Shown here in pieces: positions 2,962-37,977 of a DNA stretch of 39,136 nucleotides. The notes under the pieces are model-generated. The model made no database searches. It saw nothing but the letters and a program-made list of their open reading frames with translations, and was not told the origin of the DNA. The stretch covers positions 1 to 39,136 of the forward strand of contig JAFXAQ010000035.1 of the NCBI GenBank assembly GCA_017516925.1, read 5' to 3'. Positions within the stretch are counted from its first letter, which is position 1. Each line of letters begins with the position of its first letter. The translations under genes and the position numbers were made by a program. The stretch is from Oscillospiraceae bacterium (GTDB taxonomy: Bacteria > Bacillota > Clostridia > Oscillospirales > Oscillospiraceae).

Positions 2962-3906
2962 ATGAACACATCTGCCTTTACGAAAATTTCCTTTCCGCTG
3001 TTTGGACTGGAAATCGATCCGCCTAAGGGGTTTTCTCTGGGCAACTTTGATATTCGCATTTACGGCATTATCATTGCTGTGGGTCTGCTGCTGGCGGTGC
3101 TTTACGGCTTGAAGCGCAGTAAGGACTTCGGCATTAAGCAGGACGATATTCTTGACGGTATTTTGGGCATTGTGCCTTTTTCCGTCATCTGCGCCCGGGC
3201 GTACTACTGCGCGTTTGCCTGGGAGGAATTTGCCGCAGACCCCATTAGTGTCCTGTACATCTGGCAGGGCGGCATTGCCATTTACGGCGCGGTTATCGGT
3301 GCGTTTCTCGGCGTGGTGGTGCTGTGCCTGATTAAGAAGATCAAGCTGCCTGCGCTGCTGGACCTGGTTTGTCTGGGCTTTTTCATCGGGCAGAGCATTG
3401 GCCGCTGGGGTAACTTCTTCAACCGGGAAGCCTTCGGCGCAGAAACCGAGAGCTTTATCCGGATGGGTCTTTACGACAGTGTTGCCGGTGTGTGGCGCTA
3501 CTACCACCCCACCTTCCTTTACGAATCCCTCTGGAATTTGGCGGGCTTTGTTGCCCTGCACTTCCTGTCGAAAAAGCGTCAGTATGACGGACAGATTGCC
3601 CTGGGCTATGTTGCCTGGTACGGTCTGGGCAGAACCCTTATTGAGGGGCTGCGTATGGACAGCCTTTATTGGGGCTCCTTCCGGGTCAGCCAGCTGCTGG
3701 CGGCAGTCAGCTGCTTTGCCGCAGCGGTTGTTTTGACGGTGCTTGCCTTCCGGAAGCACAATCCGGAAAAACTTTATGTAAACCAAGTGGCGCTGAAAGC
3801 AGCAGAAGAAGCGCTTGCCGATCAAGCGGTGGAAGAAATTTCTGCGGAAGAAGCCACGTTGGATGAAGCACCCCAGCAGGAAGCGCCTCAGGAGACGGAA
3901 GAATGA
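2962..3906 (+). CDS. lgt: prolipoprotein diacylglyceryl transferase
   Basis: Lgt moves a diacylglyceryl group from phosphatidylglycerol to the lipobox cysteine of prolipoproteins in the membrane, the first step of lipoprotein maturation. The protein has about seven membrane helices, the GGIAIYGAVIGAFLG segment near residue 111 and the family signature GRWGNFFNREAFG near residue 147. The last roughly 50 residues, after FRKHNPEKLY, are an Ala/Glu-rich acidic tail ending EAPQETEE, longer than a minimal Lgt. It is the first gene of a three-gene unit and overlaps the next gene, itself a lipoprotein, by ATGA. Confidence 0.95.
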   Translation: MNTSAFTKISFPLFGLEIDPPKGFSLGNFDIRIYGIIIAVGLLLAVLYGLKRSKDFGIKQDDILDGILGIVPFSVICARAYYCAFAWEEFAADPISVLYIWQGGIAIYGAVIGAFLGVVVLCLIKKIKLPALLDLVCLGFFIGQSIGRWGNFFNREAFGAETESFIRMGLYDSVAGVWRYYHPTFLYESLWNLAGFVALHFLSKKRQYDGQIALGYVAWYGLGRTLIEGLRMDSLYWGSFRVSQLLAAVSCFAAAVVLTVLAFRKHNPEKLYVNQVALKAAEEALADQAVEEISAEEATLDEAPQQEAPQETEE

Positions 3907-4697
3907 AAAAATTTGTCCTTTTGTGCTGCCTGTGCCTGTTGCTGTCCGGCTGTCAGGCAGCCCCGGAAATTACCACTGCCCCCACAACCCAGCCCACGAC
4001 CACCGCAGAAACTACCGTAGAAACTACAGCCGAAACCACCCAGACACCCACCGTTCCCCGGGAATTTGGTTATGAGGGAGATTATCTCACCTGTCTGACA
4101 GAAGAAACCCTTCTAGGCATCGACGTGTCCAGCTTTCAGAAGGAAATTGACTGGGAGCAGGTCAAAGCTGCCGGTATTGAATTTGTGATGATCCGGGTCG
4201 GCTTCCGGGGCTACGGAGAAAAGGGCGGCTTGGTGGAAGACAAATATGCCCAAGCCAACTATCAGGGCGCAAAAGCGGCAGGCTTGAAAATCGGCGGCTA
4301 CTTCTTTTCTCAGGCTACCACAGAAGCCGAGGCTGTTGAAGAAGCGGACTACGTAAAACAATTGACCCAAGGCTGGGAAATGGATATGCCCTTTGGCTTT
4401 GACTGGGAGTGCCATACCGAGGAATACCGGACAGCCAATGTGGATGCCCAAACGCTCACCGCCTGTACCAAGGCATTCTGCGAAGCTATGGGTGGAAACG
4501 TAATTTTGTACGCAAATCCTGCCCAATCCCCCAAGGAAATGCTTTGGGAGGAGGTTTCCCAATACGGTTTGTGGCTGGGTGATTACGCAGAGCGTCCGGA
4601 AAACCCGGAAACGCTGACTATGTGGCAATATACCAACCATGGGAAGGTTCCCGGTATTCAAGGTAACGTGGATATTAACCTCTATTTCCCCCAATGA
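3903..4697 (+). CDS. lipoprotein with GH25 lysozyme domain
   Basis: A lipoprotein signal peptide ends in the lipobox LSGC, with the cysteine at residue 17. It is followed by a Thr-rich linker (about 22-48) typical of a stalk on the cell surface. Residues 70-264 match glycoside hydrolase family 25, peptidoglycan muramidases of the lysozyme type. GIDVSSFQ at 72-79 and FDWE at 166-169 carry the conserved acidic residues expected in the active site. The start lies in the lgt stop (ATGA overlap), so it is translated together with the enzyme that should lipidate it. A role in cell-wall remodelling is the natural inference; no cell-wall-binding repeats are present. Confidence 0.9.
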   Translation: MKKFVLLCCLCLLLSGCQAAPEITTAPTTQPTTTAETTVETTAETTQTPTVPREFGYEGDYLTCLTEETLLGIDVSSFQKEIDWEQVKAAGIEFVMIRVGFRGYGEKGGLVEDKYAQANYQGAKAAGLKIGGYFFSQATTEAEAVEEADYVKQLTQGWEMDMPFGFDWECHTEEYRTANVDAQTLTACTKAFCEAMGGNVILYANPAQSPKEMLWEEVSQYGLWLGDYAERPENPETLTMWQYTNHGKVPGIQGNVDINLYFPQ

Positions 4698-4711
4698 AAG
4701 GAATTTAAGTT

Positions 4712-5020
4712 ATGAAAAAACTGATTTGCATTTTGCTGTGCGTCATCACTCTGGCTTGCTGCTGTTTTGCGGCGATGGCAACCGGCGTGACGGAAGAAGA
4801 CACAGATATCACCATTGAAATTTTCCAGCCGGGAGACGTCAACGGAGACCGCAGGCCGAACAAGGATGATGCAGCGCTTTTGCTGAAATATGTCGCCGGT
4901 TGGAATGTTTCCATTAAAAAAGACCCTGCCGATGTCACCGGCGACGGCAAGATTGACGGACTGGACGCTATGCTGCTGTTGCAGAAATTTTCCGGTGTTC
5001 CCGAAACCACGCTGAAATAA
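4712..5020 (+). CDS. small secreted protein with a type I dockerin domain
   Basis: The 102-aa protein is a signal peptide (about 1-24) plus a dockerin domain and nothing else. Two duplicated calcium-binding loops are visible, DVNGDRRPNKDD and DVTGDGKIDGLD. Each is followed by a Leu-rich helix (AALLLKYV, AMLLLQKF), the arrangement by which type I dockerins bind cohesins. No enzyme module is attached and no cohesin gene is in the window, so its partner is unknown. It follows the GH25 gene by 14 bases with AAAGGA as ribosome site and is presumably in the lgt operon. The short acidic stretch before the dockerin has no recognised fold. Confidence 0.85.
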   Translation: MKKLICILLCVITLACCCFAAMATGVTEEDTDITIEIFQPGDVNGDRRPNKDDAALLLKYVAGWNVSIKKDPADVTGDGKIDGLDAMLLLQKFSGVPETTLK

Positions 5021-7150: not shown

Positions 7151-9085
7151 ATGATGGTCTCCCTGCAAAGCTATGTGCACCGGAGCAAGTACCGCCTGCG
7201 GGATTTGGCAACAAACCCCAAAATACATCTGTTCGCCCGGGCTGCCGGGCACTTTCTTGCCGGTTTTGGGCTTAGCGCTGCCAGCCTGAACAATGCCTGT
7301 ATGCCCCTTGCTGCGGCGTTGGTTTGCGCCAGCCGGGGGTGGTCAGGCGCACTGGTGTCCCTGGGAAGCGCGCTGGGCTATTGGCTTTTTTGGAATACAG
7401 CCGGTTATCAAGGGCTTTTGTGGGTGGGCGCAGCCTTTTTGGTGTCGCTGTTTCTGGGAGAGCACCGGCTGACCCGGGAGACACCGCTGCTTTTACCGGC
7501 GGTTGCCGGATTGATTGTGTCCGCCTCCGGTGTGGCATTTCAGGCCTGGCTGGGGGATACTACATCGGTGGATATCTATTTAATCCGGGTGGCGGTGGCG
7601 GGGGGCGCCACCTGGTTGTATATCCGGGTGCTTCGGGGCAGGAATCCCATTTTGGATTGGCTTGCCTGGGGAACCGCCATTCTGGCGCTGGCGCAAATCT
7701 CCCTGTTTCCCGGTTTTAGTCTGGGTGTGCCGGTTGCCGCCCTTGCCGCTGTCACCGGGGCATTTCCTGCCGCTGCCCTTTCCGGACTGGCGCTGGACCT
7801 GGCGGGTGTTACCCAGGTTTCTATGACAGCGGTGCTCTGCGGCTGCTTTCTTATCCGGTTTTTACCGGAGTATCCCAAGTGGCTGGGGGCAATGGCGCCC
7901 ACAGGGACGTATCTTCTGGTGATGCACCTGACCGGACAGCGGGATTTTGCGCCTGTGGCAGGTCTTTTGCTGGGCGGATTTGTGGGGGTGTTCTTCCCCT
8001 TGCCCCGGAAAATGCCCAACCGCCGGGGGGAGACCGGTGTGGCGCAGGTGCGGCTGGAAATGGTTGCCGGGGTGCTTGCCCAGACGGAGCAGCTGCTATT
8101 GGAAGCTCCGGAGCCGCCGCTGGACGAGGATGCGCTGATTGTCCGGGCGGCGGAACAGGCCTGCAGCGGCTGCCCCTGCCGAAAGCATTGCAAGGATATG
8201 GTACGGCTGCCCGGATTGCCTGCTGCGCTGCTGCATAAGCCGCTGCTCACGCCGGAGGAGCTGCCCATAGTCTGCCGGAAAAGCGGTCGGTTTCTGGCAG
8301 CGCTGCACCGCAGTCAGGAGCAGCTTCGCTCCATACAGGCAGACCGACACCGTCAGCGGGAATACCGGACTGCCATCACCCAGCAATATCGCTTTTTGTC
8401 AGAATATTTACAGTCCTTATCCGATGGGCTTGCCAAGCGTGCCACAGGACTGGCTGTTTGCTTTGAACCCCAGGTGCAGGTGTACGGCAACCGTCCTGCC
8501 CGGGAAAATGGGGACAGATGTCTGACCTTTGCCGGGACAGGCTGCCGGTACTATGTGCTGCTTTGTGACGGTATGGGCACAGGTCTGGGGGCGGTGGAGG
8601 AGGCAAAAACTGCCGGGGGGTTGCTCCGGCGGCTGCTCACCGCCGGATATCCTGCTGCGCACGCGCTGGAAAGCCTCAACAGCCTCTGTGCCTTGCGCAG
8701 CCGGGCAGGGGCGGTGACGGTGGATTTGCTGGAGCTGCAGCTGGAAACCGGAAAAGCCACCCTGCACAAATGGGGCGCTGCCCCCAGCTATCTGGTCAGC
8801 TCTGCAGGCGCCGAAAAAATTGGGACAGCCGGACCGCCTCCGGGTCTGTGCGTGGCAGACTGCCGGGAAACGACTTATCGGCTGTCCCTGCACCGGGGAG
8901 AGATCCTGGTGCTGGTCAGTGACGGTGTGGCGGAAACAGACGCACTGCGCTGCTGCCTGGAACGGGTGGGATTGTCACCGGGGGAGCTGGCGCTGGGCTT
9001 GCTGACCCGCGCCCAGCTGGGGGGAGAGGATGATGCCACTGTGGTCACTGTACGTCTGGGGCACAAGGGGTTGCACCCGTCTTAG
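7151..9085 (+). CDS. spoIIE: stage II sporulation protein E, PP2C phosphatase
   Basis: SpoIIE dephosphorylates the anti-anti-sigma factor SpoIIAA at the asymmetric septum and so activates sigma-F in the forespore. About the first 290 residues are a run of hydrophobic helices, matching the membrane region of the family. A middle segment holds a cysteine cluster (CSGCPCRKHCKD) near residue 340. The C-terminal 200 residues are a PP2C phosphatase with CDGMGTG near residue 475 and SDGVAE near 594, which carry metal-binding aspartates. The length of 644 aa is somewhat short compared with Bacillus (about 827). The start is ATG 7151, eleven bases after AAAGG. It is a single-gene unit and marks the organism as a spore former. 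Confidence 0.92.
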   Translation: MMVSLQSYVHRSKYRLRDLATNPKIHLFARAAGHFLAGFGLSAASLNNACMPLAAALVCASRGWSGALVSLGSALGYWLFWNTAGYQGLLWVGAAFLVSLFLGEHRLTRETPLLLPAVAGLIVSASGVAFQAWLGDTTSVDIYLIRVAVAGGATWLYIRVLRGRNPILDWLAWGTAILALAQISLFPGFSLGVPVAALAAVTGAFPAAALSGLALDLAGVTQVSMTAVLCGCFLIRFLPEYPKWLGAMAPTGTYLLVMHLTGQRDFAPVAGLLLGGFVGVFFPLPRKMPNRRGETGVAQVRLEMVAGVLAQTEQLLLEAPEPPLDEDALIVRAAEQACSGCPCRKHCKDMVRLPGLPAALLHKPLLTPEELPIVCRKSGRFLAALHRSQEQLRSIQADRHRQREYRTAITQQYRFLSEYLQSLSDGLAKRATGLAVCFEPQVQVYGNRPARENGDRCLTFAGTGCRYYVLLCDGMGTGLGAVEEAKTAGGLLRRLLTAGYPAAHALESLNSLCALRSRAGAVTVDLLELQLETGKATLHKWGAAPSYLVSSAGAEKIGTAGPPPGLCVADCRETTYRLSLHRGEILVLVSDGVAETDALRCCLERVGLSPGELALGLLTRAQLGGEDDATVVTVRLGHKGLHPS

Positions 9086-21299: not shown

Positions 21300-21373
21300 G
21301 CGGGTGTAGTTCAATGGTAGAACACCAGCCTTCCAAGCTGGATACGCGGGTCCGATTCCCGTCACCCGCTCCA
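21300..21373 (+). tRNA. tRNA-Gly (TCC)
   Basis: The acceptor stem GCGGGTG pairs with CACCCGC and CCA is encoded at 21371-21373. The anticodon loop CTTCCAA between CCAGC and GCTGG gives TCC. TTC-type T loop and D loop are present. Confidence 0.95.
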
Positions 21374-21381
21374 CACCATAT

Positions 21382-21458
<77 letters not shown>

Positions 21459-21476
21459 TTCAGCAAAATTGAATAT

Positions 21477-21553
21477 GGTGGGTATAGTTCAATTGGCAGA
21501 GCACTGGATTGTGGTTCCAGGTGTTGTGGGTTCGAGTCCCATTACCCACCCCA
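21477..21553 (+). tRNA. tRNA-His (GTG)
   Basis: GTGGGTA pairs with TACCCAC. The encoded extra G at 21477 can pair with the C discriminator at 21550, the tRNA-His hallmark. The anticodon loop TTGTGGT between CTGGA and TCCAG gives GTG. CCA is encoded. Confidence 0.95.
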
Positions 21554-30297: not shown

Positions 30298-30310
30298 TAA
30301 AAGTGACCTG

Positions 30311-30349
30311 AGAGAGACACTTCGTAAAGAAGCTGTCTCTCTTGCTTTT
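30311..30349 (+). terminator. terminator of the MATE gene
   Basis: AGAGAGACA pairs with TGTCTCTCT, with an inner TTC/GAA pair, followed by TTGCTTTTT. Confidence 0.75.
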
Positions 30350-30367
30350 TATCCTCATAAAAGAAAG

Positions 30368-30461
30368 GACACTTTACACAAAGATTGTGAAAGTGTCATA
30401 GTGGGTTGCATGCTTTGAGAAAGGTAAATACTTGCCGAAAAAACGAGATTCTTTTTTCGGC
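30368..30461. repeat. two intergenic hairpins left of the repeat array
   Basis: GACACTTTACAC (30368-30379) pairs with GTGAAAGTGTC (30387-30397) with one bulge. GCCGAAAAAA (30434-30443) pairs perfectly with 30452-30461. No open reading frame of note is seen in this stretch. Confidence 0.7.
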
Positions 30462-30468
30462 GTGTCTA

Positions 30469-30646
30469 AGTGATATTACAAACTATCGTTTGCAGTGATA
30501 TTTTTGCCAAAGGGCAAAAGTGATATTGAAACCTTACGGTTTCAGTGATATTATATTCGCCCTTAAAACTGTCCGAAGGACAATATCACTAGCGTCAGCT
30601 AATATCACTGCGAAGCAATATAACTCGCCGTAAGGCGAATATAACT
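30469..30646. repeat. orientation-switching array of nine-base repeats with mini-hairpins
   Basis: Four direct copies of AGTGATATT start at 30469, 30494, 30519 and 30544. Two copies of the exact reverse complement AATATCACT start at 30582 and 30601, and two variants AATATAACT start at 30617 and 30638. Nearly every gap is filled by a small palindrome of different sequence, for example CAAAC/GTTTG, TTTGCC/GGCAAA, GAAACC/GGTTTC, TGTCC/GGACA and CGCC/GGCG. The loops are three to four bases, often GAA, TTAC or GTAA. In addition, TTATATTCGCC (30551-30561) pairs with GGCGAATATAA further right. The whole could fold as one large branched cruciform or RNA. No protein-coding capacity is apparent. Confidence 0.85.
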
Positions 30647-30674
30647 GAGGCACCTTCCTTACGGAGGGTGCCTC
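30647..30674. terminator. strong hairpin at the right end of the array
   Basis: GAGGCACC (30647-30654) pairs with GGTGCCTC (30667-30674), extended inward by TTCC/GGAG around a TTAC loop. A T run begins ten bases later on the plus strand. It may end the array transcript or the nitroreductase mRNA. Confidence 0.6.
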
Positions 30675-30688
30675 GAAGGTCGCTTTTT

Positions 30689-31686: not shown

Positions 31687-34600
31687 ATGAAAAACAATCT
31701 GTTCAAACGGGTCCTGGCAGTGCTTCTGGCATTTGCCCTAATTGCCTCCCCGGTGGCAGGCAGCTTGCTGGATTTTACAGCTTCTGCGGCTGTGCAATCT
31801 GCCTTTGACCGTGTGGCGGACCATGAGTCTATCGACTATTGGAAGGGATACTTCTCCAACGGTGATTATGACAGTAATGTTTGGAGCAATACTGTCAGCA
31901 CCCAAAATGCCGGCGCGGTATGGACGGACAAATCCGTGTTTGTTCCGGACAGTACCATCACCATCGACGGTGTCACGGTGCCTGTGACAGACACCGGCGA
32001 TAACTTCCTGATTTCTATGTCCGTTATGGCTTCGAACAAGACAGTCCGGGGCTATGAGTACATCCCCACCTCCACAATGCTGGTTTTGGACGTCAGCGGC
32101 TCTATGGGCAACGGTCAGAGCGGCAACCGGTCCTGGGATGAAATGGTGGAAGCTGCCAACAAGGCAATTGACACCCTGTTGAACCTGAACGAAAACAACC
32201 TGGTTGGCGTGGTTCTGTATTCCGGCAACACCAACGCAGGGGATTCTACGATTAGCCACTCTGCCCTGCTGCTGCCTCTGGACAGATACACTACCACCGC
32301 AACCAACAACAACGGCACGAATTACAATACTGCCGACGACTATCCCGAATATCTGACTGCCAATAACTCCACCGTAAGCGTAAATTCTGCTGTGCGTCCC
32401 CGCACCAGTGGCAGTAAGAATGTTTCCGGCGGCACCTACATTCAGGGCGGTATTTACCGGGCAATGAATGAGCTGATTGATGCCGATGCGCCCAAGGTGG
32501 TCGCAGAAGGCGTTCAGGCGGGTATGGCATATACCCCCATTATGGTGCTGATGTCCGACGGTGCCCCTACCGCAGCAAATCTGGACTATGATTTTAACGG
32601 TAACGACACTACACATAAGACCGATATCGGTGACGGCACCGCCACCAATGAGCAGATGGGCTTTTTGACCCAGCTGACCGCCGCCTATGCAAAGGCGCGG
32701 ATTGCCGAGTCCTACGAAAAAGCGCCCCTGTTCTACACACTGGGTCTGGGTCTGAACAGTCTCAGCGATAACGACGAAGCTGTTGCCGAGGCAGTTCTCA
32801 ATCCCTCCGCCAGTTCTGGCAATATCAACTCCTATTGGAACACATATCTCCAGCTTGCCAACAACCGCACGATGTATTTGAACAACAACCGCAATCCGGT
32901 GGTTAAGAACGCGTACGTCACGGCGGATTACCGGAACTATGTTACCCAGTATTTTGAAGCGGAGGCAACCCAGAACGTAACTCTGGAGCAGGCGCTTCTG
33001 AATGCCTTCCAGCAGATTGTGGATATGATCGTTCTGCAGTCTGTGTACTACCCCACGGAAATCGGCGGCGGCAGCGCAGACCTGGGTGGCTATGTCACCT
33101 TCCGGGATGAGCTGGGCGAATATATGGATGTTCGGAGCATTAAGGGCTTCCTGTTTGAGGACGCAGACGGCCATCAGATTTTGCACACCGGTGCAGCATT
33201 GGCAAAGAACTTTGTTGCCGGCGGCGGTGACCTGGGCACTACCACCAGCCCCAAGCCTCTGGGCGATGAACTGGTGGCTTCCGTAAAGGAGCGTCTGGGC
33301 ATTGAAGACACTCTGGTTGCCCGGGACCTGATTCGGAATGCATACTACTACGGACAGCTGTCTTACGTAGATGAGAATAATTTCAGCAACTACATCGGCT
33401 GGTACGGCGATGCAAACGGCAAGTTTGTAGACTTCTGGCACGAGGGTCACACCGAGACAGAAGAAAATGCCGCTATGGCCAAGGGCGCAAAGTTTATCTA
33501 CAAATCCTATGGCTATCTGGGCGAGGTGAATCAGGATCTGGGCATTAAGGCTTCGGATATGATGCACACCACGATCCGTGTCAGAACCACCATTGCAGAC
33601 GATGTAACCGGCAGCGCTGTGGGCGAAATTGTGGTGGAAGGCGCTATCCCCGCATCCCTGATCCCCACCATTACTTATCAGGTTGCCCTCAACGGCAAAA
33701 CCTACGAGTCCGGTGTCAGCTCTGTGACCATTACCGATACCTCCGCTACCCACCCCGCCCGTATTCTTTACGAGGTTGGCTTGCGTGAGGATATCAATAC
33801 CATCAACCTTGCCGAAAAGGTGTCTGCCGCTCATAAAAACCAGGACGGCACGTATACCTTCTATACCAATGACTGGGCTTTTGTGGATTATGAAAACGGC
33901 GCTGTTGCGGATACCTCCATTAACGCCTTTACCCACTTTGAGCCTGCTCAGGAAAACGAGCGTTACTACTACCTGACCGATTCTATCGTATATCAGGATG
34001 CTCAGGGCACGCCCTACACCGGCAGCACCAAGCCTACCGGCGGAAACTATTACCACGCCAATGTGGTATTCTCCGTTACCGGCGGCGTGGCATCCATGGA
34101 AACCGAATACATAAAGACCTCTCCCGATGCCCTCTCCCACGCTGAGAAGGACGGAAGCAATTGGGTCATTCCTGCCGGAACCGGCAAGCACGAAATCGTG
34201 GGCTATCAGGTTCCCCTGAAAAATGCCAACAATACCGAAACCAACCGCTTTACCGCCTACCCGAAGATTAAGACCAACGCAGAGAACTCCTCCGGCGCAC
34301 ACACGGAGCACTACTCCGTGGTTACCTTCGGCAACAACGGCAAGCTGACGGTTACCCCCGCAACGGGCATCAAGCTGACCAAGGCGCTGGATGTGCCAAG
34401 TACAGCGGCGCAGACCTTTGAATTTAAGATTTCCGGCGCAAATGCCAATGAAGCCTACACAGTCACACCGGTGGATGCCGACGGCAGCTTCGGCGCAAGC
34501 TACACTGTAACGGCAAATGCCAGCGGCGTAATTACTGTGAATGTCACCGCCGGCACATCGGTGTATGTCACCGGTCTTGCGGCAGGCGATTATACCGTAA

Positions 34601-37600
34601 CCGAGGCAGAACACGACGATTACCGGGTGCTGACTGTAAACGGCAATGAAGCAAATCAGGCAACGGTAACCGTAACTGCCCAGCAGCTGAGCGATGTGCT
34701 GTTTGTCAACACCCTGAAGGGCTTCGGCAGCCTGTACATCACCAAGGAGGTTGTGGGCGATGCTTTGCCTGAGCACGCAACTGCCGCAGAATTTGAAATT
34801 ACGGTAGACCTGGGTCAAAATCTGAAGAACACCAGATTTGACGTTGCCCACTCCGCAGACGCTTCTCTTACCGAGAAGACTACCGACGGAAGCGGCAAAA
34901 TCACCGGTCTTACCATCAAGCACGGCGAAACTATCGTGATCCGGAATGTTCCGGAGAACACAACGGCGGTTGTGACAGAAACCCTCACCGGCAGTAACTA
35001 TACCGTGTCTTATTCCAGCCACAACAAGGCAGGCGAAGCCATGGATAACGACAGCACCGTTACCATTGAGAAGGATGCCTATGCAACCGTTCTGGTGAAG
35101 AATGCTTACAAGCCTACACCCACCAATATTTCCGTCGACTTGACCGGTACCAAATATATGGATGCCACCAATTTGACGGAAAACAAAGACTTTACATTTG
35201 TTGTTGAAAAATATGAGTACGGCGATTGGGAAAATGACCAGACCAAGGCGGTAACCGTTACCGCAGGCGATGCCAACGCAGCCGAGACCATCGCTTTCGA
35301 CGATTTGGACCTGACCTTTACCGAGCCCGGTGTATATTCCTACCGAATCTACGAAAAGCAACCCACCGCACCGGACAGCATTACCTATGACCCCACAATT
35401 TATAACTTCGTTGTGACGGTTACAGATGTAAACGGTCAGTTGACTGCAGCGGTCACCGGTAATGCCATCACAGGTTCCGGAAATGCCTACACCGCAACAG
35501 CAAACTTTACAAATGCCTACGATACCAAGCCTGTGGTTATCGACATTCAAAAGACAGTGGATAACATGGCAACAGACGGCGCATCCGCGGCAGGCTACGA
35601 ATTCGAGCTTTACAAGGCAAATGCCCAGTGGCAGTATGATGCTGCGGACCTTGTGGGAACAAAGGTTACCAACGAGCTTGGCAATGCCCGTTTTGCCTGG
35701 ATGGTAGACAGCCAGGATGCCGGAACCCACCATTATGTGCTGAAGGAAAAGGTTCCTGCCGGTTATGTCAAGCCCAGCAATGCGGATGCCCCCGGCTGGC
35801 ACTATGACACAGCACAGCGCCATATTGAAGTGGTCGTAAGCGCCAGTGGCGGTGTTGTTTCCGTCACGATCGACGGTGAAAGCACAAAGACCTACGGATT
35901 TACCAATACCTACAAGGTCTCCCCCCCGGCAGCGGTTTCTCTGGATACCCTTGCTACCAAGACCCTGAACGGTCGGGATATGGCAGCCAATGAGTTCACC
36001 TTCGAACTGAGAAATGACGCAGGCACACTCCTGGCAGAAGGCAAAAACGCAGCCGCCGCTGACGGCGTTGCCGCGCCCATTACCTTCTACAAGCCCGGCA
36101 CCACGGAAGAATTCACCCTGACCTACACCAAGGTGGGAACCTACCACTACAAAATCAGCGAGAAAGCCGGCAATCTTGGCGGCGTGGATTACACAGACCG
36201 CATCTTTGATATGGTGGTGGAAGTAAGTGACAACGGCGACGGCACCTTAAGCGTGAACCGTTACTTCGAGGACAGCACTTACCAGACCGTCAACTTCGTC
36301 AACACCTATGCGGTGAAAGCCCCCACCAGCATCCAGCTGGAGGCTACCAAGAAGCTCACCGGCGGTCGTCCGATGCTTTCCAGTGAGTTCCATTTCAACG
36401 TATATGAAATGACCGACAATACCTTTGCCACCAAGAAATCCAATACCCCTGTGGCAACCGGCTCCAACGTTGGCGACGAGCCTGACGCACAAGGTGTTAG
36501 CGAGGCAACCTTTAAGTTCTCTGCCATCGAGTACACCCAGCCCGGTAAGTACTACTACCAGATTTCTGAGGTGGACCAGAGTGGCGAATGGGGTGTTGAC
36601 TGCGACGATGCTGTGTACAACGTGACCGTAACGGTTACCGACAACGGCGACGGCACCATTACCGCCTCTGCCGACAAGACTGCCGCACAGCTGGTATTTA
36701 CCAATGTCTATACACCGACCCCCGTTAAGCTCAGCCTTACCGGTGATAAGGTGCTCACAGGCAGAGACCTGCAGCCCGGTGAATTTGACTTTGCCCTGTT
36801 TAACGCAACCGTCGGCGCCAACGATGTGTGGACTGTCGGCAGTCAGGTTGGTCAGGATGTGACCAATGAGGAAAACGGTGATATCACATTCCCGGAATTG
36901 ACCTTTACCCAGGCGGGCGTTTCCCACTATATCGCCAAGGAAATTGGCGGTGTGTTGGGCGGTGTTGCATATGACGATACCCAGTATCATATTACTGTAA
37001 CAGTCACCGATAACCACCGTGGTGTTCTTTCCGCCGAGGTGATTATCACAAACGATGATGGCGAGCTGTCCCAGATTGTATTCCGGAACCAATATGACAC
37101 CGACGGCACACAGCTGGTTCTGGAGGGCACAAAGACCCTCACCGGTCGGGATATGACAGCAGGCGAATTCTCCTTCGTGATTAAGGAAGACGGCGTCGTT
37201 GTGGCAAACGGCACCAACAAGGCAGCCTCTGCCGGAATAGCTGCAGACATTGTTTTTGAAGGGATTTCCTATACCAAGGACGATGTGGGCGAGCACACCT
37301 ACACAGTGGAAGAGGTTACCCCGGAAGGCAATGTAAAAGATGGCGTCACCTATGACACAAAGAAATACACCGTCACCGTAACCGTTACCGATAACGGCGA
37401 CGGTACCATCTCCGCTGTAGCGGATATGGCAAAGGCAGACCTTGTCTTTACCAACACCTATGCAGCCGAGGAAGCAAAGCTTTCCCTGCAGGGTGTCAAG
37501 AAGGTTACTGGCGCCGAGCTGAAGGACCAGCAGTTTACCTTCCAGCTGTATGAGGCTGACAGCAGCTTTGCTGCCAAGGGCGATGCTCTGCAGACGGTAA

Positions 37601-37977
37601 AAAATGCCGCTGACGGCACAATCCTCTTTAACAGCATTTCCTTCCAGCGTGTTGGCACATACAACTACGTCATCACAGAAAAGGATGACGGGCAGGAAAA
37701 CTACACCTATGACAATACCACCTGGTGTGTCACAGTGGTGGTTACAGATAACGGTGAAGGCGCTCTGGTCGCAGAAGCAACCATCAACCGAAAGGGCTCT
37801 GCAACGAAAGTGTCTGCCTTTACCTTCGAAAACCTCTATGTGAAGGCTCCGGCACCCGACACCAGCGACAATTCCAACATCGCTTTGTGGTTTGCGCTGT
37901 TGTTCGTCTGCGCCGCAGGCTTTGCGGGTATGACATTTCTTGCCCCTGCCAAGCCCCGGAAGAAAGAAACAAAATAA
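31687..37977 (+). CDS. giant vWA and isopeptide-domain surface protein
   Basis: A 2096-aa cell-surface protein. A signal peptide (about 1-34) precedes a von Willebrand A domain (about 125-345) with a complete MIDAS: DVSGS at 135-139, T250 and D291. After a connecting region come about nine immunoglobulin-like isopeptide domains. Two resemble DUF5979/Cna-B (895-1141) and one is Cna-B-like with YVLKEKVPAGY (1283-1410). Six are Spy0128/FctA-type (1147-1280 and 1415-2052). Each ends in a F-x-N-x-Y strand (Asn 1276, 1539, 1673, 1801, 1923, 2049). Each has a Lys near its start, as in GTKTLTGRDM, and a mid-domain Glu, the set needed for Lys-Asn cross-links. The end is PDTSD, a membrane helix (about 2066-2086) and KPRKKETK; no canonical LPXTG is present. 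Adhesion to host or matrix is inferred. It stands alone without pilin or sortase genes. Confidence 0.9.
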   Translation: MKNNLFKRVLAVLLAFALIASPVAGSLLDFTASAAVQSAFDRVADHESIDYWKGYFSNGDYDSNVWSNTVSTQNAGAVWTDKSVFVPDSTITIDGVTVPVTDTGDNFLISMSVMASNKTVRGYEYIPTSTMLVLDVSGSMGNGQSGNRSWDEMVEAANKAIDTLLNLNENNLVGVVLYSGNTNAGDSTISHSALLLPLDRYTTTATNNNGTNYNTADDYPEYLTANNSTVSVNSAVRPRTSGSKNVSGGTYIQGGIYRAMNELIDADAPKVVAEGVQAGMAYTPIMVLMSDGAPTAANLDYDFNGNDTTHKTDIGDGTATNEQMGFLTQLTAAYAKARIAESYEKAPLFYTLGLGLNSLSDNDEAVAEAVLNPSASSGNINSYWNTYLQLANNRTMYLNNNRNPVVKNAYVTADYRNYVTQYFEAEATQNVTLEQALLNAFQQIVDMIVLQSVYYPTEIGGGSADLGGYVTFRDELGEYMDVRSIKGFLFEDADGHQILHTGAALAKNFVAGGGDLGTTTSPKPLGDELVASVKERLGIEDTLVARDLIRNAYYYGQLSYVDENNFSNYIGWYGDANGKFVDFWHEGHTETEENAAMAKGAKFIYKSYGYLGEVNQDLGIKASDMMHTTIRVRTTIADDVTGSAVGEIVVEGAIPASLIPTITYQVALNGKTYESGVSSVTITDTSATHPARILYEVGLREDINTINLAEKVSAAHKNQDGTYTFYTNDWAFVDYENGAVADTSINAFTHFEPAQENERYYYLTDSIVYQDAQGTPYTGSTKPTGGNYYHANVVFSVTGGVASMETEYIKTSPDALSHAEKDGSNWVIPAGTGKHEIVGYQVPLKNANNTETNRFTAYPKIKTNAENSSGAHTEHYSVVTFGNNGKLTVTPATGIKLTKALDVPSTAAQTFEFKISGANANEAYTVTPVDADGSFGASYTVTANASGVITVNVTAGTSVYVTGLAAGDYTVTEAEHDDYRVLTVNGNEANQATVTVTAQQLSDVLFVNTLKGFGSLYITKEVVGDALPEHATAAEFEITVDLGQNLKNTRFDVAHSADASLTEKTTDGSGKITGLTIKHGETIVIRNVPENTTAVVTETLTGSNYTVSYSSHNKAGEAMDNDSTVTIEKDAYATVLVKNAYKPTPTNISVDLTGTKYMDATNLTENKDFTFVVEKYEYGDWENDQTKAVTVTAGDANAAETIAFDDLDLTFTEPGVYSYRIYEKQPTAPDSITYDPTIYNFVVTVTDVNGQLTAAVTGNAITGSGNAYTATANFTNAYDTKPVVIDIQKTVDNMATDGASAAGYEFELYKANAQWQYDAADLVGTKVTNELGNARFAWMVDSQDAGTHHYVLKEKVPAGYVKPSNADAPGWHYDTAQRHIEVVVSASGGVVSVTIDGESTKTYGFTNTYKVSPPAAVSLDTLATKTLNGRDMAANEFTFELRNDAGTLLAEGKNAAAADGVAAPITFYKPGTTEEFTLTYTKVGTYHYKISEKAGNLGGVDYTDRIFDMVVEVSDNGDGTLSVNRYFEDSTYQTVNFVNTYAVKAPTSIQLEATKKLTGGRPMLSSEFHFNVYEMTDNTFATKKSNTPVATGSNVGDEPDAQGVSEATFKFSAIEYTQPGKYYYQISEVDQSGEWGVDCDDAVYNVTVTVTDNGDGTITASADKTAAQLVFTNVYTPTPVKLSLTGDKVLTGRDLQPGEFDFALFNATVGANDVWTVGSQVGQDVTNEENGDITFPELTFTQAGVSHYIAKEIGGVLGGVAYDDTQYHITVTVTDNHRGVLSAEVIITNDDGELSQIVFRNQYDTDGTQLVLEGTKTLTGRDMTAGEFSFVIKEDGVVVANGTNKAASAGIAADIVFEGISYTKDDVGEHTYTVEEVTPEGNVKDGVTYDTKKYTVTVTVTDNGDGTISAVADMAKADLVFTNTYAAEEAKLSLQGVKKVTGAELKDQQFTFQLYEADSSFAAKGDALQTVKNAADGTILFNSISFQRVGTYNYVITEKDDGQENYTYDNTTWCVTVVVTDNGEGALVAEATINRKGSATKVSAFTFENLYVKAPAPDTSDNSNIALWFALLFVCAAGFAGMTFLAPAKPRKKETK

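Follow-up and report, generated by a model that had tools for sequence, protein, structure and literature searches.

An Inverted Array of Constant Units and Variable Hairpins as the Probable Core of a Dispersed Gut-1 Element in Uncultured Gut Clostridia

The array analyzed here is probably the central part of a dispersed, non-autonomous mobile element, the "Gut-1 element", of uncultured gut bacteria from one order of Clostridia. It lies in a 39,136-nucleotide stretch of an Oscillospiraceae genome (contig JAFXAQ010000035.1), the whole of which is called the window below. The element was partly known before as the "Gut-1 RNA", which is one half of this bipartite inverted element. Its relatives keep a common plan, their stems covary, their placement relative to gene ends is polar, their positions are biased toward tRNA genes, and near-identical copies occur at unrelated sites.

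A preliminary description, made from the letters alone, had reported eight units alternating with palindromes and inverting midway, and the coordinates agree with it (Table 1). The array spans 178 bp. Its first four units read AGTGATATT, and the last four are the reverse complement, exact twice and then twice with one change (AGTTATATT). The palindrome of H7 has a mismatch at its outermost pair. With one mismatch allowed, the unit matched 14 times in the window, compared with a mean of 5.46 (SD 2.32, maximum 11) in 100 shuffles of the whole 39 kb. Folding, which had been suggested as a check, gave results far better than shuffles on both strands (z = −8.2 for the plus strand and −6.5 for the minus strand). 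The array had been called neither a tandem repeat nor a CRISPR, which fits the sequence: in place of unique, non-palindromic spacers there are palindromes, and the units invert midway. The description makes no mention that the middle of the array repeats its right end in reverse; the two segments are the arms of a predicted long-range stem, P1. The neighboring genes, for a MATE transporter on the left and a nitroreductase on the right, are convergent on the array.

Table 1. Positions in the window of the array, of the composite around it and of their parts
Feature	Position	Strand	Remark
Unit AGTGATATT	30469..30477	+	
Hairpin H7 (ACAAAC TATC GTTTGC)	30478..30493		
Unit AGTGATATT	30494..30502	+	
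Hairpin H6 (TTTGCC AAAG GGCAAA)	30503..30518		
Unit AGTGATATT	30519..30527	+	
Hairpin H5 (GAAACC TTAC GGTTTC)	30528..30543		
Unit AGTGATATT	30544..30552	+	
Centre, 3′ arm of long-range stem P1	30551..30561	-	11/11 complementary to 30634-30644
Hairpin H4 (GTCC GAA GGAC)	30571..30581		
Unit AGTGATATT	30582..30590	-	
Hairpin H3 (AGC GTCA GCT)	30591..30600		
Unit AGTGATATT	30601..30609	-	
Mini-hairpin H2 (GC GAA GC)	30610..30616		
Unit variant AGTTATATT	30617..30625	-	
Hairpin H1 (CGCC GTAA GGCG)	30626..30637		Outer arm could pair locally or with the centre
5′ arm of long-range stem P1	30634..30644	-	
Unit variant AGTTATATT	30638..30646	-	
Rfam Gut-1 RNA match (RF01706)	30578..30647	-	51.7 bits, cut-off 50
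Composite repeated element with the array inside	30310..30676		367 bp; full-length copies at other loci 82-85% identical
Composite left terminal hairpin GAGAGAGACACTTCG...TGTCTCTC	30310..30342	+	
Composite right terminal hairpin GAGGCACCTTCC...GGAGGGTGCCTC	30647..30674	+	Roughly inverted relative to left hairpin, by eye
Outer terminator-like stem, left arm	30299..30309	+	Varies among copies
Outer terminator-like stem, right arm	30677..30687	+	Continues into T tract

The right half of the array matched the Rfam Gut-1 family just above the gathering cut-off. The preliminary description, which knew of no function for the array, had missed this family, although it covers half of it. Gut-1 was reported as occurring in the human gut only and as a likely noncoding RNA (Weinberg et al., 2010; PMC2864571); among the matches listed, open-licence PMC text held nothing further on these arrays. 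The Gut-1 model, which reads U-hairpin-U-hairpin-U-hairpin-U with GUGAAAU as the unit (U), covers half of the window array. It describes a noncoding RNA of 77 nt in one dialect, whereas the element seen here is bipartite and inverted, contains a long-range stem, occurs in several dialects, is placed in a polar manner and shows signs of mobility. An orphan Rfam "noncoding RNA" is thus recast as half of a larger element, whose function becomes testable now that its polarity and insertion context are known.

Similar arrays, for which the preliminary description had recommended a search, were found in the same genome and in other genomes of the genus and order. The genome of the window has 34 places matching RF01706 at E ≤ 10, several of them as facing pairs; 8 score above the cut-off, and the 26 below it include other dialects. 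Of 80 genomes from the genus and order (this one included), 41 had matches at E ≤ 0.001, with at most 45 in any one of them. The distribution is patchy among species of one genus at that threshold: under strict filters that cover Gut-1 dialects only, many same-genus genomes had no match, some of them 97–100% complete. A phylum-wide draw of 249 genomes, scanned with strict filters at E ≤ 1e-6, gave only two with a match, namely this genome and one of the same order. The genomes sampled are metagenome-assembled (MAG) drafts, one per species. Among the matches listed, chance hits included, the window word also appeared in MAGs from the guts of cattle, goat, sheep, deer, buffalo and yak. Two records with weak or partial matches turned up in a plasmid collection and two in a phage collection. 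Viral pattern scans returned 28, 42 and 69 stretches; the 28 found with TGATATT looked by eye like chance tandem repeats, except L182. A de novo detector flagged L213, L242 and L260 in the loci of the other two scans, to which L226 was added by hand; L247 is apparently a second copy of L213. The L226 phage contig also carries an Rfam GP20-b RNA (4684–4743).

The detector searched for inverted k-mer arrays with hairpins and was supplied with no word. In the fetched loci it detected 148 elements, of which 143 were distinct once near-identical ones had been removed. Eighty of the stretches were high-scoring Gut-1 places taken from the 150 listed, a non-random choice, and they contributed 44 elements. 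The recurrent plan is U-H1-U-H2-U-H3-U-H4-linker-X′-U′-H5-U′-H6-U′-H7-U′, with X′ a repeat of one H1 arm. In 113 of the 143 elements a stretch of 7 nt or more from one end recurs at the centre, clearly longer than for the other end; 30 were left unoriented. By eye, unit counts center on about eight; there are also half-arrays and longer variants. U takes several forms (AGTGATATT in the window, GTGAAAT, GTGAAGTT, TCGATAT/GCGATAT, TGAATT and GTGATG), several of them within this one genome. Because the elements were reached through Gut-1-like or window-like words, other dialects are under-sampled in these counts. Two hits (L149 at 2636 and L240 at 4921) were excluded by eye before the counts of hairpin polarity, placement and mismatches. 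L226 holds a longer variant (3838–4090 and 7850–8045) whose centre has two extra hairpins by eye, and contig C41 of the present genome has a similar centre, by eye and with no unit arrays, at a portal-gene end that matches L226.

The preliminary description had also proposed a check for compensatory changes, and covariation proved strong. Thirty relatives of the window array were aligned, 6 of 36 sequences having been left out with the H1 end cut short; the far-side words are nearly invariant and the hairpins variable. Double-changed cells numbered 182, compared with 62.5 in shuffles, and none of 500 shuffles reached this value; one-sided changes were found in 10 cells, and 93 cells were unpaired. 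Paired cells made up 91.1%; when slid, the maximum was 41.0%. Of the five covariation measures, one did not surpass the shuffles (52 further pair types against 49.1, reached in 106 of 500). In P1, 317 of 319 cells from 29 sequences were Watson-Crick and none was G-U; one of its pairs was A-T in 14 sequences, C-G in 8, T-A in 6 and mismatched once. Twelve aligned TGATATAT-type elements gave 37 double-changed cells against 11.3 in shuffles. There P1 is invariant, whereas 4 of 84 cells of the local H1 helix were not Watson-Crick, which suggests that P1 may be the more constrained partner of the shared arm.

Since the detector requires hairpins, the presence of stems is partly a matter of construction, but their polarity is not. 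Of 408 hairpins read along U, 357 had C-G as the loop-closing pair; the loop began with T in 335 and ended with C in 285. The closing-pair bias held in the left half (180/200), in the right half read on the other strand (177/208) and in a larger set (583/660); closing-pair and loop biases were absent from shuffled segments. A module of word plus polar hairpin that is kept on either strand favors recognition as DNA. On the complementary strand most of the common loops are GNA or GNNA, which form very stable DNA mini-hairpins. The 408 hairpins, pooled over loci, had 189 distinct stems, and stems also differ inside a single array. Mismatches in unoriented hairpins were G·T in 12 cases, A·C in 18 and other in 14. 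On the H1-first strand they were G·T 29, A·C 13 and other 46 in an oriented permissive set, and G·T 37, A·C 16 and other 63, beside 2,293 Watson-Crick pairs, in the larger set. This G·T excess is a mild hint of RNA-like behavior, and its binomial p of 0.005 is too small because the rows are related.

Elements often lie behind the terminator of an upstream gene, with the H1 end toward the gene's 3′ end. Fifty of the 143 distinct elements had a tRNA (44) or tmRNA (6) gene within 160 nt, a result that was the same under two program settings; the tRNAs were of 14 kinds. In all 50 it was the neighbor's 3′ end that faced the element; among the 37 oriented cases the neighbor stood at the H1 end 36 times, the exception being a tmRNA at the far end. 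Such neighbors were found for 25 of 46 elements of the GTGAAAT dialect, 13/23 of TGATATAT, 5/41 of GTGATATT, 1/5 of GTGAAG, 0/12 of CGATAT and 6/16 of others. In the named-MAG loci, places at tRNA or tmRNA 3′ ends account for 0.44% of bases, yet for 6 of 44 elements. Counting all genes, tRNAs included, a 3′ end faced the H1 side in 58 of 81 assessable cases and the far side in 25 of 75; this count used the 88 elements oriented at that stage and simple open frames, and is noisy. On C41, TCGATAT, GTGAAGTT and TGAATT forms occupy gaps behind ACS/CODH-RACo and prophage genes, at distances of 62 and 15 nt from the two ORF ends checked in the ACS/CODH-RACo region. The elements offer a natural data set for how repeats reach safe sites behind terminators, and for how palindromes stay perfect during sequence turnover.

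Across 37 kb, C41 carries about nine arrays in three dialects of the unit, eight of them found by the detector and one by eye, and genes for prophage terminase, portal, major head and tail adjoin its ACS/CODH-RACo region (L318/L319). At L474, L478, L481 and L482, the same phage portal-gene end is followed, by eye, by other repeat-like sequences, for example of TGTCATCCTGAGCG and GTCATTGCGAACC types, as if it were a landing place for several repeat families. At L043 (1192–1686), a tRNA-Thr gene, terminator and element are tandemly duplicated.

The window array is the core of a composite that sits within a terminator-like loop. Four other distinct composites match it at the identity given in Table 1: L345 in the same genome, L322 in another species of the genus, L344 in another family and L103 in a named MAG. 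A fifth copy, L123, is 75% identical, and a query stretch of 375–379 bp had 85% identity in the genome of another family. The outer stem differs in sequence among copies, yet within any one copy its arms are complementary, imperfectly so in L103 and L322 and clearly so in the other four. Own flanks paired at a mean of −16.7 kcal/mol, compared with −10.9 kcal/mol for swapped flanks, and were best in 5 of 6 rows; L321, apparently the same locus as L344, was left out. Insertion into terminator loops is a simple explanation for outer stems that differ yet are self-complementary. Of 40 genomes, 3 contain the terminal-hairpin pattern ACACTTCGTAARGAAGT, at 4 places in all. Inside the composite, near CATAGTGGGTTACATRCTTTGA, is a strongly conserved stretch (window 30395–30417; also in L103, L123, L344 and L345).

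Twelve TGATATAT-type copies have the element in common and different upstream sequence. Copies behind tRNA-Ala (G029), tRNA-Gly (G033) and tRNA-Leu (G017) are 93–94% alike with nearly the same terminator; behind tRNA-Gln (G010) the element is 94% alike and the terminator different. The presumed upstream gene of the query is 65–73% identical in other species of the genus where matched (69% in G033; no match was listed for G017 or G010). Copies this similar behind different tRNA genes in three species suggest that the element is mobile, though gene conversion, or the transfer of tRNA regions as a whole, could likewise explain how identical copies spread. In L061 and L364 a tRNA 3′ fragment, seen by eye, directly precedes terminator and element. 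Among the nitroreductase neighbors, the L063 locus, 74 phage portal-gene loci and a comparison of G051 with G075, no clean empty site with a target duplication was found. In the last, flanks 86–87% identical enclose different arrays at one gene end (by eye, unflagged by the detector), and the junction is messy, with 3.2 kb in G075. Of the portal-gene loci, the detector flagged L517 and L537 and missed L468, which is the L226 phage and has an array by eye; 14 other printed portal ends lack one by eye.

The H1-first strand can fold so that P1 encloses H2–H4 and H5–H7 follow, all joined by U or its complement. For the most part the element lies past the 3′ end of a gene, in one and the same orientation, whether behind intrinsic terminators (often of tRNA or tmRNA genes), inside a terminator-like loop as in the composite, or close after stop codons in operons and prophages. 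From these observations we propose that copies arose through transposition-like insertion, and the repeated module of U plus hairpin may be recognized single-stranded by a mobilizing or host factor, different dialects of U possibly reflecting different partners. The stems may stay perfect partly through DNA-level copying between arms. A bolder version, which we offer only tentatively, is that these elements form a new class, one that uses a folded single strand (ssDNA or RNA) to move. Recognition would then depend on a word given about eight times in two orientations and on hairpin form, not hairpin sequence; each of the coexisting dialects would have its own partner protein, and an inherent bias toward sites immediately behind terminators would make insertion harmless.

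The three guesses of the preliminary description were a structured RNA, a protein-binding scaffold and a non-autonomous element, and the last is the best supported. As a functional RNA, the H1-first strand would be transcribed by read-through of the gene or operon upstream and would serve as a 3′ element, in stability or as a decoy for a protein that binds single-stranded U. This strand tends to run codirectionally with the upstream gene, arrays occupy intergenic gaps in an operon-like region and in a prophage, covariation is strong, G·T exceeds A·C, and Weinberg et al. (2010; PMC2864571) place Gut-1 among likely noncoding RNAs. We nevertheless consider an RNA role rather unlikely: the element often stands behind a terminator, is patchy among species of one genus, has a P1 free of G-U, and shows far more double than one-sided changes, beside the unpaired cells. 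Nor is a hairpin polarity that follows U on both strands readily explained by one transcript.

That polarity would better suit a DNA site useful to the host at the ends of strongly transcribed genes, where the array, as a cruciform or with protein bound, would deal with supercoils or shield the following gene, much as BIMEs are bound by gyrase or architecture proteins. The position behind tRNA, tmRNA and other gene ends, the inverted plan and the nearly perfect palindromes would agree with such a site. Its absence, by the strict Gut-1 search, from many genomes of the same genus, the several dialects per genome and the arrays between phage genes make it less probable still than the RNA. The preliminary description also likened the array to a product of stepwise addition or recombination, and a CRISPR-like build-up or rearrangement in place would account for uniform units beside differing hairpins within one array. 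We regard this as very improbable, given that copies in other genomes mostly retain the same hairpins in the same order, that unit number clusters near eight by eye, and that centre and P1 are fixed. With hairpin identity and order so largely retained across genomes, the array seems to travel as a whole.

Among known repeats, the mobile element that we favor resembles in form REP/BIME sequences (see PMC2817692), which share with it short hairpins beside a constant word, inversion, many copies and intergenic positions. Both-orientation, interspersed, high-copy hairpins are indeed found here, and the element probably works like a BIME-type repeat. In this element, however, the word is conserved and the palindrome is not, as the number of distinct stems attests. 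REP/BIME palindromes go with RAYT Y1 transposases. The corresponding domain (PF01797, E ≤ 1e-5) was absent from 7 of the 12 element-rich genomes, those with 15 or more Gut-1 matches (G002, G004, G051, G059, G067, G071 and G075), and present in the other five (G000, G010, G016, G058 and G069). The unconserved stems and this absence argue against membership in REP/RAYT. Group IIC introns target terminators and lie directly behind their hairpins in one orientation, as the element does. The group II maturase domain (PF08388) occurs in 8 of 80 genomes and, among the element-rich ones, only in G002, G010 and G058, and so is missing from 9 of 12. Domain absence from draft genomes is not absolute; still, neither protein tracks the elements as a candidate mobilizer, though some element-rich genomes carry them. 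MITEs, RU, ERIC and BOX are small non-autonomous elements that are short, non-coding and dispersed. The present element is like MITEs in all of this, and its composite has roughly inverted terminal hairpins by eye; it differs in its variable internal hairpins and in that no related transposase was seen. In the simple elements no terminal inverted repeats were seen.

Several Gut-1 matches lie at contig ends, so the elements may contribute to assembly breaks in gut genomes. At an orthologous tRNA-Val locus, the G075 contig ends 4 nt behind the terminator. The terminator stems of orthologous tRNA-Val genes of two species (L545 and L571) are unrelated. Elsewhere in the window, three tRNA genes stand in a row on the plus strand (21300–21550), and a 2,096-residue open frame on the same strand (31687–37974) encodes a predicted giant surface adhesin- or pilin-like protein that has a VWA domain and seven isopeptide stretches of the FctA/Spy0128 type.
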